This document shows positions 3,831 through 39,772 of a stretch of 64,000 bases of DNA, piece after piece. Source of the stretch: Sandaracinus amylolyticus (GTDB taxonomy: Bacteria; Myxococcota_A; Polyangia; Polyangiales; Sandaracinaceae); the NCBI RefSeq assembly GCF_021631985.1, contig NZ_CP070225.1:8060001-8124000 (forward strand), read 5' to 3'. The number at the start of each line of letters is the position of its first letter. The stretch's first letter is position 1. The notes below the pieces were generated by a model that saw only the letters and a program-made list of their open reading frames with translations, was not told where the DNA came from and did no database searches. Both the position numbers and the translations under genes were made by a program.

Positions 3831-4411
3831 TGATCTCGGCCGCCCTCGCGGCCGCGGGGTGTGGGGGAGAAGAAGCGACGATCACGCCGGAGGGAGCGGC
3901 GCCCGTCGCTCCATCGCGCGTGGAGGCGGTGGCGGCGCGCGACGACGATCCGGCGCGTCGCTTCTGCGACGTGTCGGCGGCAGTGGGCGAAGGACGCGAG
4001 CTCGCGCTCCCGCCGCTCGAGGGCCCGAGCGCGCCGACGAGCGGATGGCGGTGGATCAACGTGTGGGCGACGTGGTGCGCGCCGTGTGTCGAGGAGCTGC
4101 CGCGCATCGTCGCGTGGCGCGCGCGGCTCGCGGAGGAAGGCACGCCGATCGAGCCGTACTTCGTGTCGGTCGACGGGAGCGCCGAGGACGTCGCGACGTG
4201 GCGCGGGGCGCACCCCGACGCGCCGGAGTCGGCGCGGATGACCGACCCGGCCGGGCTCTCGCCGTTCTTCGCATCGCTCGGGCTCGACGCGGCGACGTCG
4301 ATCCCGATCCACGCGCTGGTCGATCCGACCGGCCACGTGCGCTGCGTGCGCGCGGGCGCGGTCGCGGAGCGCGACTACGCGACGGTGCGGGCGATCCTCA
4401 GGACGCGCTGA
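3809..4411 (+). CDS. TlpA/ResA-like thioredoxin-fold lipoprotein
   Basis: A 200-residue protein. An N-terminal basic region (MDRLR) and short hydrophobic stretch end in a lipobox-like AAAGC with C18 as the likely lipidated cysteine. The thioredoxin motif WCAPC lies at 89-93 (C90, C93) in INVWATWCAPCVEELP, typical of TlpA/ResA reductases. A cis-proline-like IPIHALVDPTGHV follows. Start 3809 was chosen because it supplies the positive n-region; an in-frame ATG at 3830 overlaps the preceding stop as TGATG and is the alternative. As third gene of the VKOR-DsbA operon it probably acts as a periplasm-facing reductase or isomerase. Confidence 0.78.
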   Translation: MDRLRAVMISAALAAAGCGGEEATITPEGAAPVAPSRVEAVAARDDDPARRFCDVSAAVGEGRELALPPLEGPSAPTSGWRWINVWATWCAPCVEELPRIVAWRARLAEEGTPIEPYFVSVDGSAEDVATWRGAHPDAPESARMTDPAGLSPFFASLGLDAATSIPIHALVDPTGHVRCVRAGAVAERDYATVRAILRTR

Positions 4412-36528: not shown

Positions 36529-37050
36529 TCACTCGCTCGCGGGCGGCTCGTCCTCCTGCGCGTCGCGGCGGCGGCCCTTGCTCGTGTAGTCGGTCATGAA
36601 CTCGAAGGCCTGTGCGACCTCGGGCAGCCGTCGGCCCACGCTCTTCGAGAGGTCGTAGACGTCGAGCGCGGCGCGCCACGCCTCGTTCTCCGCGAGCATC
36701 CGCGCATCGACCAGCGCGCCGAGCTTCGCTTCGTACTTCTGGCGCAGCTCGTTCTCGCGCTCCCACGCGCGCTGGGCGCGCCCCGCGAGCGTGCGCAGCT
36801 TCGCCGGGCTGAGCCCGGGCACCCGCAGGTGCGCGCGGTTCGCCTCCCACGCGCTGACGCTCGTGCCGATCGCGTCGTCGTAGTCGGCGGGCGGGCGCAG
36901 CAGCGACGCGCGCTGCTCGTCGGTCAGTCGCGGAGCGCTCACAACGCGCGTGCGCGACGATGACTTCTTCGCGCTCTTCTTCTTCGCGGCGCTCTTCTTC
37001 GCGCGGGTCTTCTTGGTCGAGCTCTTCTTGGATGTCTTCTTGGTCGCCAT
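36529..37050 (-). CDS. Protein with histone-H1-like Lys/Ser tail
   Basis: A 173-residue protein. The first 35 residues are almost all Lys, Ser, Thr and Ala (MATKKTSKKSSTKKTRAKKS), like histone H1-type bacterial nucleoid proteins. The rest (about 45-173) is helical with no recognised domain: LTDEQRASLLRPPADYDDAI, then LSPAKLRTLAGRAQRAWEREN. A DNA-binding or nucleoid role is plausible from the tail alone. ATG 37050 opens the tail; the upstream open frame is ignored. Confidence 0.65.
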   Translation of the reverse strand: MATKKTSKKSSTKKTRAKKSAAKKKSAKKSSSRTRVVSAPRLTDEQRASLLRPPADYDDAIGTSVSAWEANRAHLRVPGLSPAKLRTLAGRAQRAWERENELRQKYEAKLGALVDARMLAENEAWRAALDVYDLSKSVGRRLPEVAQAFEFMTDYTSKGRRRDAQEDEPPASE

Positions 37051-37155
37051 GCGCGAGATCGTACGCGACGCGTCGAGCCCCGCCAGGGAGCGCGAAGATC
37101 CGATCACGATCCGTACGACACGCGAGCATCCCTCGCGGCGAACGACACGAGATGC

Positions 37156-37240
37156 GATCATTTCGATCGCGATCCGACGCAACTCGCGATCATTTTGATC
37201 GCGATTCGTCGCAACTCGCGATCATTTCCATCACGCGCCG
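37156..37240. repeat. 32-bp tandem repeat, two and a half copies
   Basis: Units at 37156-37187 and 37188-37219 begin GATCATTT and differ at a few positions; a partial third begins at 37220. Each unit contains overlapping GATC and CGCGAT palindromes. The stretch is richer in A/T than the surroundings and lies just upstream of the histone-H1-like gene, so it may include promoter elements. Confidence 0.75.
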
Positions 37241-37425
37241 CGCGAAAGTTCGTCGAATTCTCGGCATATTCGCGCGATTTTTCCAGCCCCCGGAGGTTGG
37301 GGATCGAACCCCCCCGCACTGGCCTCGTCATCCCCAGCGGAAGGGGATCGCACCCCCATCCACCGGCCTCGCGACCCAGGCACAGCGGCGAAGCACCCCC
37401 TCGGTGCCGCCTCGCGACGCCTCCA

Positions 37426-37509
37426 TACCGCCTCGCGACCCCGCACCGCGGGCGACCCACTCCTCCATACCGCCTCGCGCCCCGCACCGCGGGCGACCCA
37501 CTCCCCTCG
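37426..37509. repeat. Two 42-bp direct repeats with degenerate flanking copies
   Basis: Units 37426-37467 and 37468-37509 each begin TACCGCCTCGCG and contain CCGCACCGCGGGCGACCCACT. Related fragments with the CCTCGCGAC core occur at about 37359-37425 and 37510-37560. The period equals that of the array at 17062 but the sequence is different. No coding frame through this region has protein character. Confidence 0.7.
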
Positions 37510-37613
37510 TACCGGCTCACGACCCCGCGCGACAGCGGCCTCACGACCACGGCTCGCCGGGCGTCCACCACCGCCCGAGTCGACTCCACGATGCCCGAAG
37601 GGCGAGTCGGTCC

Positions 37614-37660
37614 GCGCGTGATGACGCGAGCGCGCGAAGCGCTCTCGCGTCATCACGCGC
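37614..37660. repeat. Perfect 17-bp inverted repeat (hairpin)
   Basis: Arms 37614-37630 (GCGCGTGATGACGCGAG) and 37644-37660 are exact reverse complements around a 13-base loop. It lies mid-way in a non-coding stretch, about 260 bases from the nearest gene end, so it is not an obvious terminator. Confidence 0.85.
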
Positions 37661-37721
37661 TCTCTCCATCACCCGAAGAGCGGCGCGTGCATCCCCGCGC
37701 GCGGCCGAGACCTCACCAGCA

Positions 37722-37894
37722 GGGCGCGTGGCAGGGGGCCCGAGCGCTTCCGCAGCGACCCACCCGAAGGCAGCCCCGCACTGCCCGGTTCTCGTCATCG
37801 CATCCGCGATGACGAGAACGACCCCGCCTCCCGACGCCTCACCGCTCGCGCACGAGGGTCGCGAGGACCAGCGAGGGCCCCCTGCCACGCGCCC
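37722..37894. repeat. Long-range 20-bp inverted repeat enclosing a 14-bp hairpin
   Basis: Arms 37722-37741 (GGGCGCGTGGCAGGGGGCCC) and 37875-37894 are exact reverse complements 133 bases apart. Inside, 37788-37801 and 37806-37819 form a perfect 14-bp stem (GTTCTCGTCATCGC) with a four-base loop. The right arm ends about 24 bases from the stop of the EAL gene. The nested design could be a structured RNA, a bidirectional terminator or a mobile repeat element; no ORF inside is credible. Confidence 0.8.
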
Positions 37895-37918
37895 CCGCCG
37901 AACCCTCACCCCGCGCGA

Positions 37919-39772
37919 TCAGCCTTCCCGAACGTGCCGCTCGAAGGCATCCGGCGGCATCGGCTTCCCGAACAGGTAGCCCTGCACCTCGTCGCACCCG
38001 ACGTTCGCCAGCTGCTCGAGCTGCGTCGGCGTCTCGACGCCCTCCGCGAGGACGTCGAGCCCCAGCTGGTGCCCGAGGAACGTGATCGCCTGCGCCAGCG
38101 AGCGCGCCTGCTCCGCCGCGACGCCCTCGCGATCGAGCTCCTGCACGAACGAGCGATCGATCTTCAGCACGTCGACCGGCAGCTTCTGCAGGTACGCGAG
38201 CGACGAGTACCCGGTGCCGAAGTCGTCGACCGACACCCGCACGCCCAGCGAGCGCAGCGCGCTCAGTCGCTCGATCGCCTGCTCGACCTCGCCCATGACG
38301 ATCGTCTCGGTCAGCTCGAGCTCGAGCCGCTCGGGCGGGATGCTCGCGGCGCGCACCGCACGCTTCACCGTGCCCACGAAGTCGTGCCGCACGAACTGCA
38401 GGCCCGACACGTTCACCGACACGCGCCCGTACTCGAGCCCCGAGTCGCTCCAGCGCTTGCACTGCCGCGCGACCTCGTTGAGCGCCCAGGTGCCGATCGG
38501 CACGATCAGACCGCTGTCCTCGGCGACCGGGATGAAGCGACCCGGGCTGATCATGCCGCGCTGGGGGTGCTTCCAGCGCAGCAGCGCCTCGGCACCGACG
38601 AGCTCGCGCGTCTCGATCGAGTACTTGGGCTGGTAGTGCAGCGAGAGCTGCCCCGAGCGCATCGCCTCGCGCAGCTGGTGCTCGAGGTCGAGCCGCTCGC
38701 GCGCGGTCTGCTGCATCGACGCGTCGAAGAGCTTGAGCCGTCCTGGCCCCTCGTTCTTCGCCTGGTGCAGCGCGATGTCGGCGTAGCGCAGCAGCGTCGC
38801 GGCGTCGGGCGCGTCGTCGGGATGACGCGCCACGCCGATGCCCGCGGTCAGCACGATCTCGTGGGCGTCGAGGTGGAAGGGCTCGCGGATCGCCTGCTGG
38901 ATGCGATCCGATCGCTGCAGCGCCGACACCCCGGCGCGCACGTCGTCGAGCAGCACGATGAACTCGTCGCCGCTTCGTCGCCCGACGAGATCTCCGTCGT
39001 CGATGCTCGAGAGCAGGCGCTGCGCGACCTGCCGCAGCAGCACGTCGCCGAGCGCGTGCCCCAGCGAGTCGTTCACCCGGCGGAACCGATCGAGCGAGAC
39101 GATCGCGAGCGCGAGGCCCTGCCCCATCACCTGCGCCCGCTCGATGCGGCGCTCGGTCTCGAGGTGCACGTACGCGCGATCGGGCAGGCCGGTCACGGGA
39201 TCGGGCCGCGGCGCGCGCTGCGACGATCCGGCGCGACGCCGCACCCGCAGGTCGATCGGCGGGCTCGGGGTCGCAGCGATCGCGTGCGACGCGGTGATCG
39301 GCTCGGTCGCGGAGGGCGGCTGCAGCACGCCCTCGACGAGCGCGCGCAGATCGTCGAGCGCCGCGCTGCGGCGGGGCTCGGCGAGATCGGGGCGCGGCCG
39401 GATGTCGGCGAGCAGCACCGTCGCGAGCTGGGTCTCGCCCGCCATGATCGGCAGGGTCGCGACCGAGAGCGGCGTGGTGCCGGGGGCGAAGAGCGCGACC
39501 TCGGGCGCCGCCGGGCCGCGGCCGACGTGGGTCACGATGCGCGCCCGCTCGAGCCGCAGCCGCCGCGCCGGCACGACCTCCTCGAGGCCTCCGTCGCGGG
39601 GCAGCTCGCTCGCGCTCGCGAGCTTGCGCGCGTGATCGCCCTCGAGCGCGAAGCACACCGCGATCGGCAGATCGACGAGCCCCGCGACCGTTCGCAAGAG
39701 TCGCTCGACCGTCTTTCCCCTCGCGTCGGCTGTCGCCGCGGCGGCTGGGTCTCGCGTCTCGCTCGGGCTCAT
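37919..39772 (-). CDS. GAF-like, degenerate GGDEF and EAL domain protein (c-di-GMP phosphodiesterase)
   Basis: A 617-residue protein. An N-terminal GAF-like sensor (about 20-150) is followed by a GGDEF domain (about 188-350) whose signature reads RRSGDEF at 265-271. The EAL domain spans about 365-610: EALLRW at 395-400, ELTET at 486-490, DDFGTGYS at 516-523, KIDRSFV at 537-543, then EGVET and QGYLFGKPM. All EAL metal and catalytic motifs look intact, so c-di-GMP hydrolysis is expected. The first Gly of GGDEF is Ser, so cyclase activity is uncertain. No membrane span or signal peptide; soluble. Nothing nearby names its input. Confidence 0.9.
   Translation of the reverse strand: MSPSETRDPAAAATADARGKTVERLLRTVAGLVDLPIAVCFALEGDHARKLASASELPRDGGLEEVVPARRLRLERARIVTHVGRGPAAPEVALFAPGTTPLSVATLPIMAGETQLATVLLADIRPRPDLAEPRRSAALDDLRALVEGVLQPPSATEPITASHAIAATPSPPIDLRVRRRAGSSQRAPRPDPVTGLPDRAYVHLETERRIERAQVMGQGLALAIVSLDRFRRVNDSLGHALGDVLLRQVAQRLLSSIDDGDLVGRRSGDEFIVLLDDVRAGVSALQRSDRIQQAIREPFHLDAHEIVLTAGIGVARHPDDAPDAATLLRYADIALHQAKNEGPGRLKLFDASMQQTARERLDLEHQLREAMRSGQLSLHYQPKYSIETRELVGAEALLRWKHPQRGMISPGRFIPVAEDSGLIVPIGTWALNEVARQCKRWSDSGLEYGRVSVNVSGLQFVRHDFVGTVKRAVRAASIPPERLELELTETIVMGEVEQAIERLSALRSLGVRVSVDDFGTGYSSLAYLQKLPVDVLKIDRSFVQELDREGVAAEQARSLAQAITFLGHQLGLDVLAEGVETPTQLEQLANVGCDEVQGYLFGKPMPPDAFERHVREG

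Follow-up and report, generated by a model that had tools for sequence, protein, structure and literature searches.

Genomic context of the inverted repeats

The window analysed here is a stretch of 64,000 nucleotides from Sandaracinus amylolyticus. In it, a gene for a GGDEF/EAL protein, recognized by Pfam (37919..39772, minus strand), and a gene for a lysine-rich protein of 173 aa on the same strand (36529..37050, start at 37050) are separated by 868 bp (37051-37918), which bears out the non-coding stretch described in an earlier note on this DNA. The three inverted repeats reported there were all recovered by an inverted-repeat search: a hairpin, hereafter I1, with arms of 22 nt (37614-37635/37639-37660) that are 95% complementary, with one mismatch; a perfect stem of 20 nt, I2, whose arms (37722-37741/37875-37894) are 133 nt apart and span 173 bp in all; and, enclosed by the latter, a perfect hairpin of 14 nt with a 4-nt loop, I4 (37788-37801/37806-37819). 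In a perfect-hairpin scan, I1 corresponds to 17 perfect pairs around a 13-nt centre, the longest perfect hairpin of the window. The whole window holds 10 perfect hairpins (arms of at least 11 bp, loops of 3-20), versus 0-4 in five first-order random sequences. Folding of 37600-37910 gave z-scores of -7.0 for the minus strand and -9.2 for the plus strand, and none of 100 shuffles reached the energy on either; the plus-strand fold has the larger z, but a weaker energy than that of the minus strand, which is the sense strand of the element. Both the z-scores and the excess of perfect hairpins over random sequences confirm that such arms are beyond chance.

The CGTCATC-type arms said to be common to both hairpins are present in the window copy but absent from most other copies of the element described below, and the likeness is probably a coincidence. 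No short target-site duplication abuts 37721/37895, where one had been envisaged; both 20-bp arms are instead flanked immediately by an imperfect direct repeat of the GGTGAGGCTTCGG type. No tRNA was found, Rfam gave no window match at gathering scores and none at E values up to 1 in five loci, including L040 and L045, which carry copies, and no G+C-rich hairpin followed by a T run, as expected of an intrinsic terminator, was present in 37000-38200, the region of the window copy. Two tandem repeats occur between the element and the lysine-rich protein gene, which starts ~530 bp behind it. One, at 37154-37232, consists of 2.5 copies of a 32-bp unit, GCGATCATTTCGATCGCGATCCGACGCAACTC, lies ~100-180 bp upstream of the start at 37050 and could be an operator array; the other, at 37420-37528, has 2.6 copies of a 42-bp unit, with a diverged version at the same place in L060, the orthologous locus of the sister genome.

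A dispersed family in two genomes of one genus

Sequence comparison indicates that the inverted repeats of the window are parts of one copy of a dispersed repeat of ~340 bases. The whole element, delimited by matches at many places of the two genomes and by an alignment of 15 long copies, covers 37578..37918 on the minus strand, its sense being the direction of the upstream EAL gene. Three genomes of the genus were considered: this one (G000), the sole other good genome (G001) and a fragmented assembly that belongs to the genus by filing (G002). A 65-nt sequence model, R1, was built from an alignment, A1, of 31 copies with 80% mean column identity. Searches with it returned at least 21 matches in G000 at E 1.8e-10 or better and at least 21 in G001 at E 3.3e-7 or better, numbers that are lower bounds, as only part of the first-look candidates were scored in the genome search. 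The set of 41 copies used below comprises the window copy, 19 more of G000 and 21 of G001; a truncated copy at G000 4092146 is counted among the 21 model matches of this genome and lies outside the set.

With the same model, no element was found in G002, and the best E in the other 142 genomes of the order was 1.1e-4; weak matches (E 1.1e-4 to 0.01) occurred in 14 of these 142, and the five that were inspected had no element-like arms by eye. A core pattern with 25 specified letters was present in only two of 377 genomes of the phylum, 15 times in G000 and 13 times in G001, and gave no hit in a wider contig collection, from which records near this genome may be absent. A plasmid collection held no match to the element, and spread by plasmids was rejected on this basis. 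These searches place the family in G000 and G001 and in none of the other genomes searched.

No named description of this repeat family was found in the literature, judged on titles and the first part of abstracts and with few subscription journals covered. In the portion of the S. amylolyticus genome paper that was available (PMC5010890), the only repeat analyses are those of tools for CRISPR repeats and insertion elements. One locus of G001, L082, carries two copies ~1.1 kb apart, around 3967 and 5057 (G001 8019966 and 8021056), at a place where G000 has one (L052); this pair would derive either from a duplication with its surroundings or from two insertions.

Organization of the element

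In sense order, the element begins behind the stop codon with one arm of a basal stem, P1 (CCGCGCGGGG), followed by a GAGGCTTCGG motif and an I2 arm of 20-25 bases. Then come a conserved CCTCGCTA..CCTCGCGA stretch, a variable part that includes I4, a conserved GTCGCTGCGGAAGCGCTCGG stretch and the second I2 arm, and finally GCTGGTGAGGCTTCGG, the second P1 arm, a linker of 27-43 bases, hairpin I1 and a short hairpin. On the minus strand of the window, the 5' arm of P1, TCGCGCGGGG, forms the first bases of the element (37909..37918, from the alignment and the consensus fold). The 5' arm of I2 (37875..37894, from the inverted-repeat search and the comparison of copies) and its 3' arm (37722..37741) bound an inner cassette of 173 bp (37722..37894) with I4 inside (37788..37819). 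The stretch represented by model R1 (37695..37759), well conserved in alignment A1, takes in GTCGCTGCGGAAGCGCTCGG, the 3' arm of I2 and the 3' arm of P1, the latter placed by the consensus fold at 37695..37706. The 3' module consists of I1 (37614..37660, 22 bp with one mismatch) and is followed by the terminal hairpin CGACTCGCCC-TTC-GGGCATCG (37589..37609), identified by reading and folding the sequence. The whole conserved element therefore has further hairpins outside the P1 arms, and the 20-bp perfect ends belong to the inner cassette.

This plan is shared by the family: a scripted search in the 41 copies detected the I2 stem in 39, I4 in 37 and I1, which is deleted in L062, in 40. The two copies with no I2 stem in the scripted window (L054 and L082_8021k) were left out of the cassette comparison. 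Cassettes are 173-192 bp long in 38 of the 39 copies measured and 267 bp in L088, where ~80 extra bases (~3911-3992) are found within the cassette relative to the ortholog L047. In a second type of frame, seen for example in L045, L056, L057 and L070, other sequences replace the P1 arms. The consensus fold of seven copies of one subtype shows P1 and I2 as a nearly continuous rod of ~40 pairs, in which the opposed GAGGCTTCGG motifs contribute several G-U pairs, a feature derived from seven of the 41 copies by a fold that allows G-U. Of the 115 pairs predicted in this fold, 20 have changed on both sides with pairing retained, and covariation contributes little (a term of -1.48). As lengths and inner sequences differ among copies, no kept reading frame is expected, and the element would not code for protein. 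The downstream flanks of L045, L049, L052 and L056 have an extra short hairpin unit of the GGCAGCGCGCGCTTCGCGCGC type, which ends in GCCGAATTGG in three of the four; GCCGAATTGG also closes the short hairpin of other copies.

Position behind stop codons

At the window locus the stop codon of the GGDEF/EAL gene (37919-37921) directly adjoins the element, and the gene and the element are found at the same position in G001 (L060). This arrangement is general in the family. According to a codon-position test, the 300 bases upstream are coded on the sense strand in 30 of the 41 copies, and in all 30 (22 distinct loci) a stop codon is located at -28 to +14 of the first base of the element; six of them, with the stop at +12 to +14, have a stop codon that belongs to the element itself. 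Under stricter ORF criteria, a sense stop lies within 400 bases in 25 of the 41 copies, and in each of these 25 within 30 bases. Among the 11 copies that were not sense by the codon test, two (L090 and L082_8019k) are sense by the ORF criteria, L082_8021k has a misplaced start and eight, at five loci, are antisense, 12-61 nt from the likely start codon of the neighbouring gene. Ten upstream proteins that were examined belong to mixed families, for example a sigma factor, Lgt, an aldehyde dehydrogenase and a response regulator, with an aminotransferase domain common to two of the ten; this mixture fits an element rather than a regulon.

Shared sites, cassette exchange and loss

A cassette-bearing copy is present in both G000 and G001 at 12 sites. 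At three of these (L042/L069, L041/L067 and L048/L063) the cassette has been swapped for one of another subtype: the upstream gene is orthologous, as are the P1 arm and the 3' module, with 95, 80 and 93% identity in the 3' module, respectively, and the cassettes are only 66-69% identical, L041/L067 being the least clear case. Cassettes at eight other shared sites are 82-95% identical, and the ninth unswapped site (L047/L088) shows 64%, lowered by the insertion mentioned above. Of 13 pairs listed for direct comparison, four were read in this way and the others were judged from cassette identities. The cassettes of L046/L071 and L050/L083 are nearer to that of another copy than to their ortholog, so that more exchange may be hidden, and the cassette of L044 is closest to that of L045, which has the other frame type.

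For 15 copies lacking a partner, the orthologous region was found in the sister genome, and 11 of these unshared junctions were read, leaving out L045, L054, L061 and L068 (no right flank). A partial element was present at seven of the 11 (L044/L092, L049/L091, L053/L096, L056/L095, L070/L102, L090/L098 and L089/L103) and no element at the other four (L051/L097, L066/L100, L085/L104 and L087/L099); opposite L051, L066 and L085, the empty site still has the stop codon of the host gene. In L092, L091 and L102 part of one I2 arm is left and the other arm is gone, and these half-arms point to deletion, while L096 and L095 could be docks that never received a cassette. Where G001 carries copy L065, G000 has a small 3' piece only. 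The boundary of the missing part falls within I2 or at its base at several sites, with overlaps of 3-19 bases at four junctions, and no constant target-site duplication was seen in the 11 junctions read.

At least part of the element is found in both species at 20 of 28 sites, and most copies therefore predate the species split, with loss and exchange since then; at the four sites that are empty in one species, a whole element may have been freshly inserted in the other. The mobile element of 173 bp with 20-bp arms put forward in the earlier note is thus partly upheld. The family is dispersed, and exactly that unit is swapped at three of 12 sites or partly missing elsewhere; but conservation extends over about double that length and takes in the 17-bp hairpin, and no clean insertion with target duplication was observed.

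Pairing is kept while sequences change

Stems were sought in the 41 copies in a way that does not favour G-U pairs. In each of the three, an arm matches its own partner much better than the arms of other copies, with complementarity of 0.913 versus 0.477 for I2, 0.853 versus 0.346 for I4 and 0.795 versus 0.358 for I1 (39, 37 and 40 copies, respectively), values that exceed all 5000 permutations for every stem. When one copy per shared site is taken (25 copies), at least two Watson-Crick pair types occur at 13 of the 20 positions of I2. The arms are conserved in form and not in sequence.

The kind of mismatch informs on which nucleic acid is constrained. G-U mismatches outnumber A-C mismatches by 45 to 19 (p 0.0016), and by 33 to 13 when each shared site is represented once (p 0.0045); on the 73 pairs common to the consensus folds of both strands the ratio is 33:19. 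By stem, it is 34:6 in I2 and I4 together and 11:13, or 9:9 after de-duplication, in I1. The excess modestly favours a role of the sense RNA. For the structured RNA considered in the earlier note, a structured nucleic acid is supported by arms that match their own partners best, and support for constraint on the sense RNA is modest. This option and that of a mobile element do not exclude each other.

Base-by-base compensation between orthologous copies, which was expected, was not found. The comparison of orthologs gave 425 unchanged pairs, 14 one-sided breaks and 29 double changes that keep pairing, and 25 of these 29 are in the I4 of three site pairs, that is, block replacement of the hairpin; four stem comparisons were omitted from this count (two missing stems and two with unequal arms), and swapped sites contributed I1 only. 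In addition, the tip of I1 is flipped between the window copy and its ortholog L060. Given broken pairs, block replacements and a flipped tip, palindrome-specific mutation processes probably take part.

These data bear on the strongest of the competing readings, a purely DNA-level palindromic element that forms cruciforms or single-stranded structures, with its pairing maintained at replication through template switching and palindrome correction and with no RNA role. The inverted tip, the change of hairpins in blocks instead of single compensated substitutions, the losses that end in or at the base of I2 with short overlaps, the balance of G-U and A-C in I1 and the larger fold z-score of the plus strand all speak for it. 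Against it, G-U exceeds A-C in I2 and I4 together, several sense-strand G-U pairs are kept in the P1 helix (the fold allows G-U and leans that way), and the sense orientation is preferred directly behind stop codons. Overall, we regard a purely DNA-level element as possible, with a minor share of the probability.

Proposed interpretation

The explanation that we favour, with a probability of roughly 0.6, is a genus-specific, non-autonomous hairpin element of ~340 bases that is read as an mRNA 3' end and carries an exchangeable inner cassette. It is directly supported by the dispersal, the shared plan, the matching of arms, the position at stop codons, the exchange of cassettes and the sister sites that lack the element partly or wholly. 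Beyond this, we infer that the element is transcribed, that it influences mRNA 3' ends (stability or processing, for instance by RNase III cleavage of the long duplex) and that some machinery spread it in the past. The mRNA of the upstream gene, if read on, would end in the long P1-I2 stem of ~40 pairs enclosing I4, with a second long hairpin (I1) and the short hairpin behind it; if the element is transcribed, its effect on the mRNA 3' end would likely be exerted via this very long duplex. The frame, made up of P1 and the 3' hairpins, would stay at its site. The inner cassette of 173-192 bp, bounded by 20-bp arms, could be lost or be traded among the dispersed copies, with recombination or gene conversion as the most likely route. 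Since both subtypes share the base of I2 and the GGCTTCGG motif, replacement of the inner part within an unchanged outer part fits gene conversion.

The same pattern would result if a cassette re-entered an emptied dock, which leads to a variant that we consider somewhat less probable than the DNA-level reading. It supposes a two-part element. P1 and the 3' hairpins would make up a dock anchored behind stop codons, and a plug-in cassette of 173-192 bases would home into this dock or replace its content. The cassette would be recognized by its RNA or single-stranded DNA fold and not by its sequence, which could change freely as long as the fold is preserved.

A host regulatory RNA of the 3' UTR, or an unusual terminator, that is under selection at these genes and not mobile appears unlikely. 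It would explain the close position behind stop codons and the conservation at 12 sites in both species, but seven of the 11 sister junctions have only part of the element and four have none, the upstream genes are of mixed families, none of the other genomes searched has the element, and the region of the window copy (37000-38200) has no hairpin with a T run. The homologous EAL gene of G002 (72% over its end) also argues against it, as it has no element behind it; ten bases later there is an ATG that seemingly opens the next gene.

Comparison with known repeats and significance

In our assessment, the element resembles known repeats of the MITE, ERIC and double-hairpin types, and its cassette and its placement at stop codons would set it apart. 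Like the MITE-type repeats ERIC, Correia/NEMIS and RUP, it is short, non-coding and dispersed and has long stem-loops; unlike them, as described in the available part of the source (PMC2229807), it exceeds 200 bp (theirs are under 200) and is G+C-rich (most of theirs are A+T-rich). The same text reports that ERIC is co-transcribed with neighbouring genes and that ERIC and NEMIS act on mRNA via RNase cleavage of the folded RNA (PMC2229807). Further differences from this group are the lack of TA ends or of a constant target duplication, the three or more stems with sequences that differ by copy, and the exchangeable inner cassette with a set place behind stop codons.

The mitochondrial double-hairpin or repetitive hairpin elements, in the accessible part of the account consulted (PMC2800124), are likewise hairpin units limited to close relatives and thought to be mobile by a mechanism that is left open; in sponge mitochondria conserved stems are reported (PMC2800124), unlike the stems of this element, which vary in sequence. 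Here too the hairpins form a dispersed unit confined to close relatives (G000 and G001), but on a bacterial chromosome and at gene ends. Such hairpin elements have reportedly been described in Allomyces mitochondria as well.

With the REP/BIME sequences associated with RAYT proteins the element has in common that both are intergenic palindromic repeats. REP units are tens of bases long, in contrast to the ~340 bases of this unit. The Y1 transposase domain (Y1_Tnp, PF01797) had no match in G000, with five of 14 control genomes positive, and spread driven by a RAYT was rejected on account of this absence. Integron attC sites, which follow genes, were also considered and set aside on account of size and dispersal.

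This work describes a family of folded repeats that keep their shape although the arm sequences differ, that sit close behind stop codons and that exchange their inner part between sites. If its RNA acts, around twenty mostly unrelated genes per genome would have received the same kind of 3' structure from the element; if it does not, the family would offer a clean system in which to examine how palindromes are maintained and flipped by DNA replication. Both questions can be tested in this pair of congeneric genomes, with their paired filled, swapped and emptied sites.

The last alternative, that the copies are retron-derived and were spread by reverse transcription, is very improbable: G000 has three retron-type reverse transcriptases, the cassette folds as a unit of 173-192 bases and msDNA-like repeats dispersed in another myxobacterium, Nannocystis exedens, have reportedly been described, but comparison of the 41 copies with 6.5-kb regions around five reverse transcriptases of G000 gave only short matches, the best of which (E 5e-8) is a simple tandem tail behind two copies and outside the element, no copy lies within 90 kb of these genes, and there is no Rfam match. 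The three retron-type enzymes (L116, L117 and L118) were assigned by PADLOC to RT_XIII in two cases and to RT_other in one, and inverted repeats upstream of two of them resemble, by reading, an msr-msd region. At L119 (619-3636) there is a reverse transcriptase of 1006 aa with RT_UG5-nitrilase, a DRT defence type, as best PADLOC match (E 1.9e-254), and at L120 (2667-3638) a reverse transcriptase frame of 324 aa, with 'RT' as best PADLOC match (E 7.9e-23), looks by reading like a broken group II intron protein.
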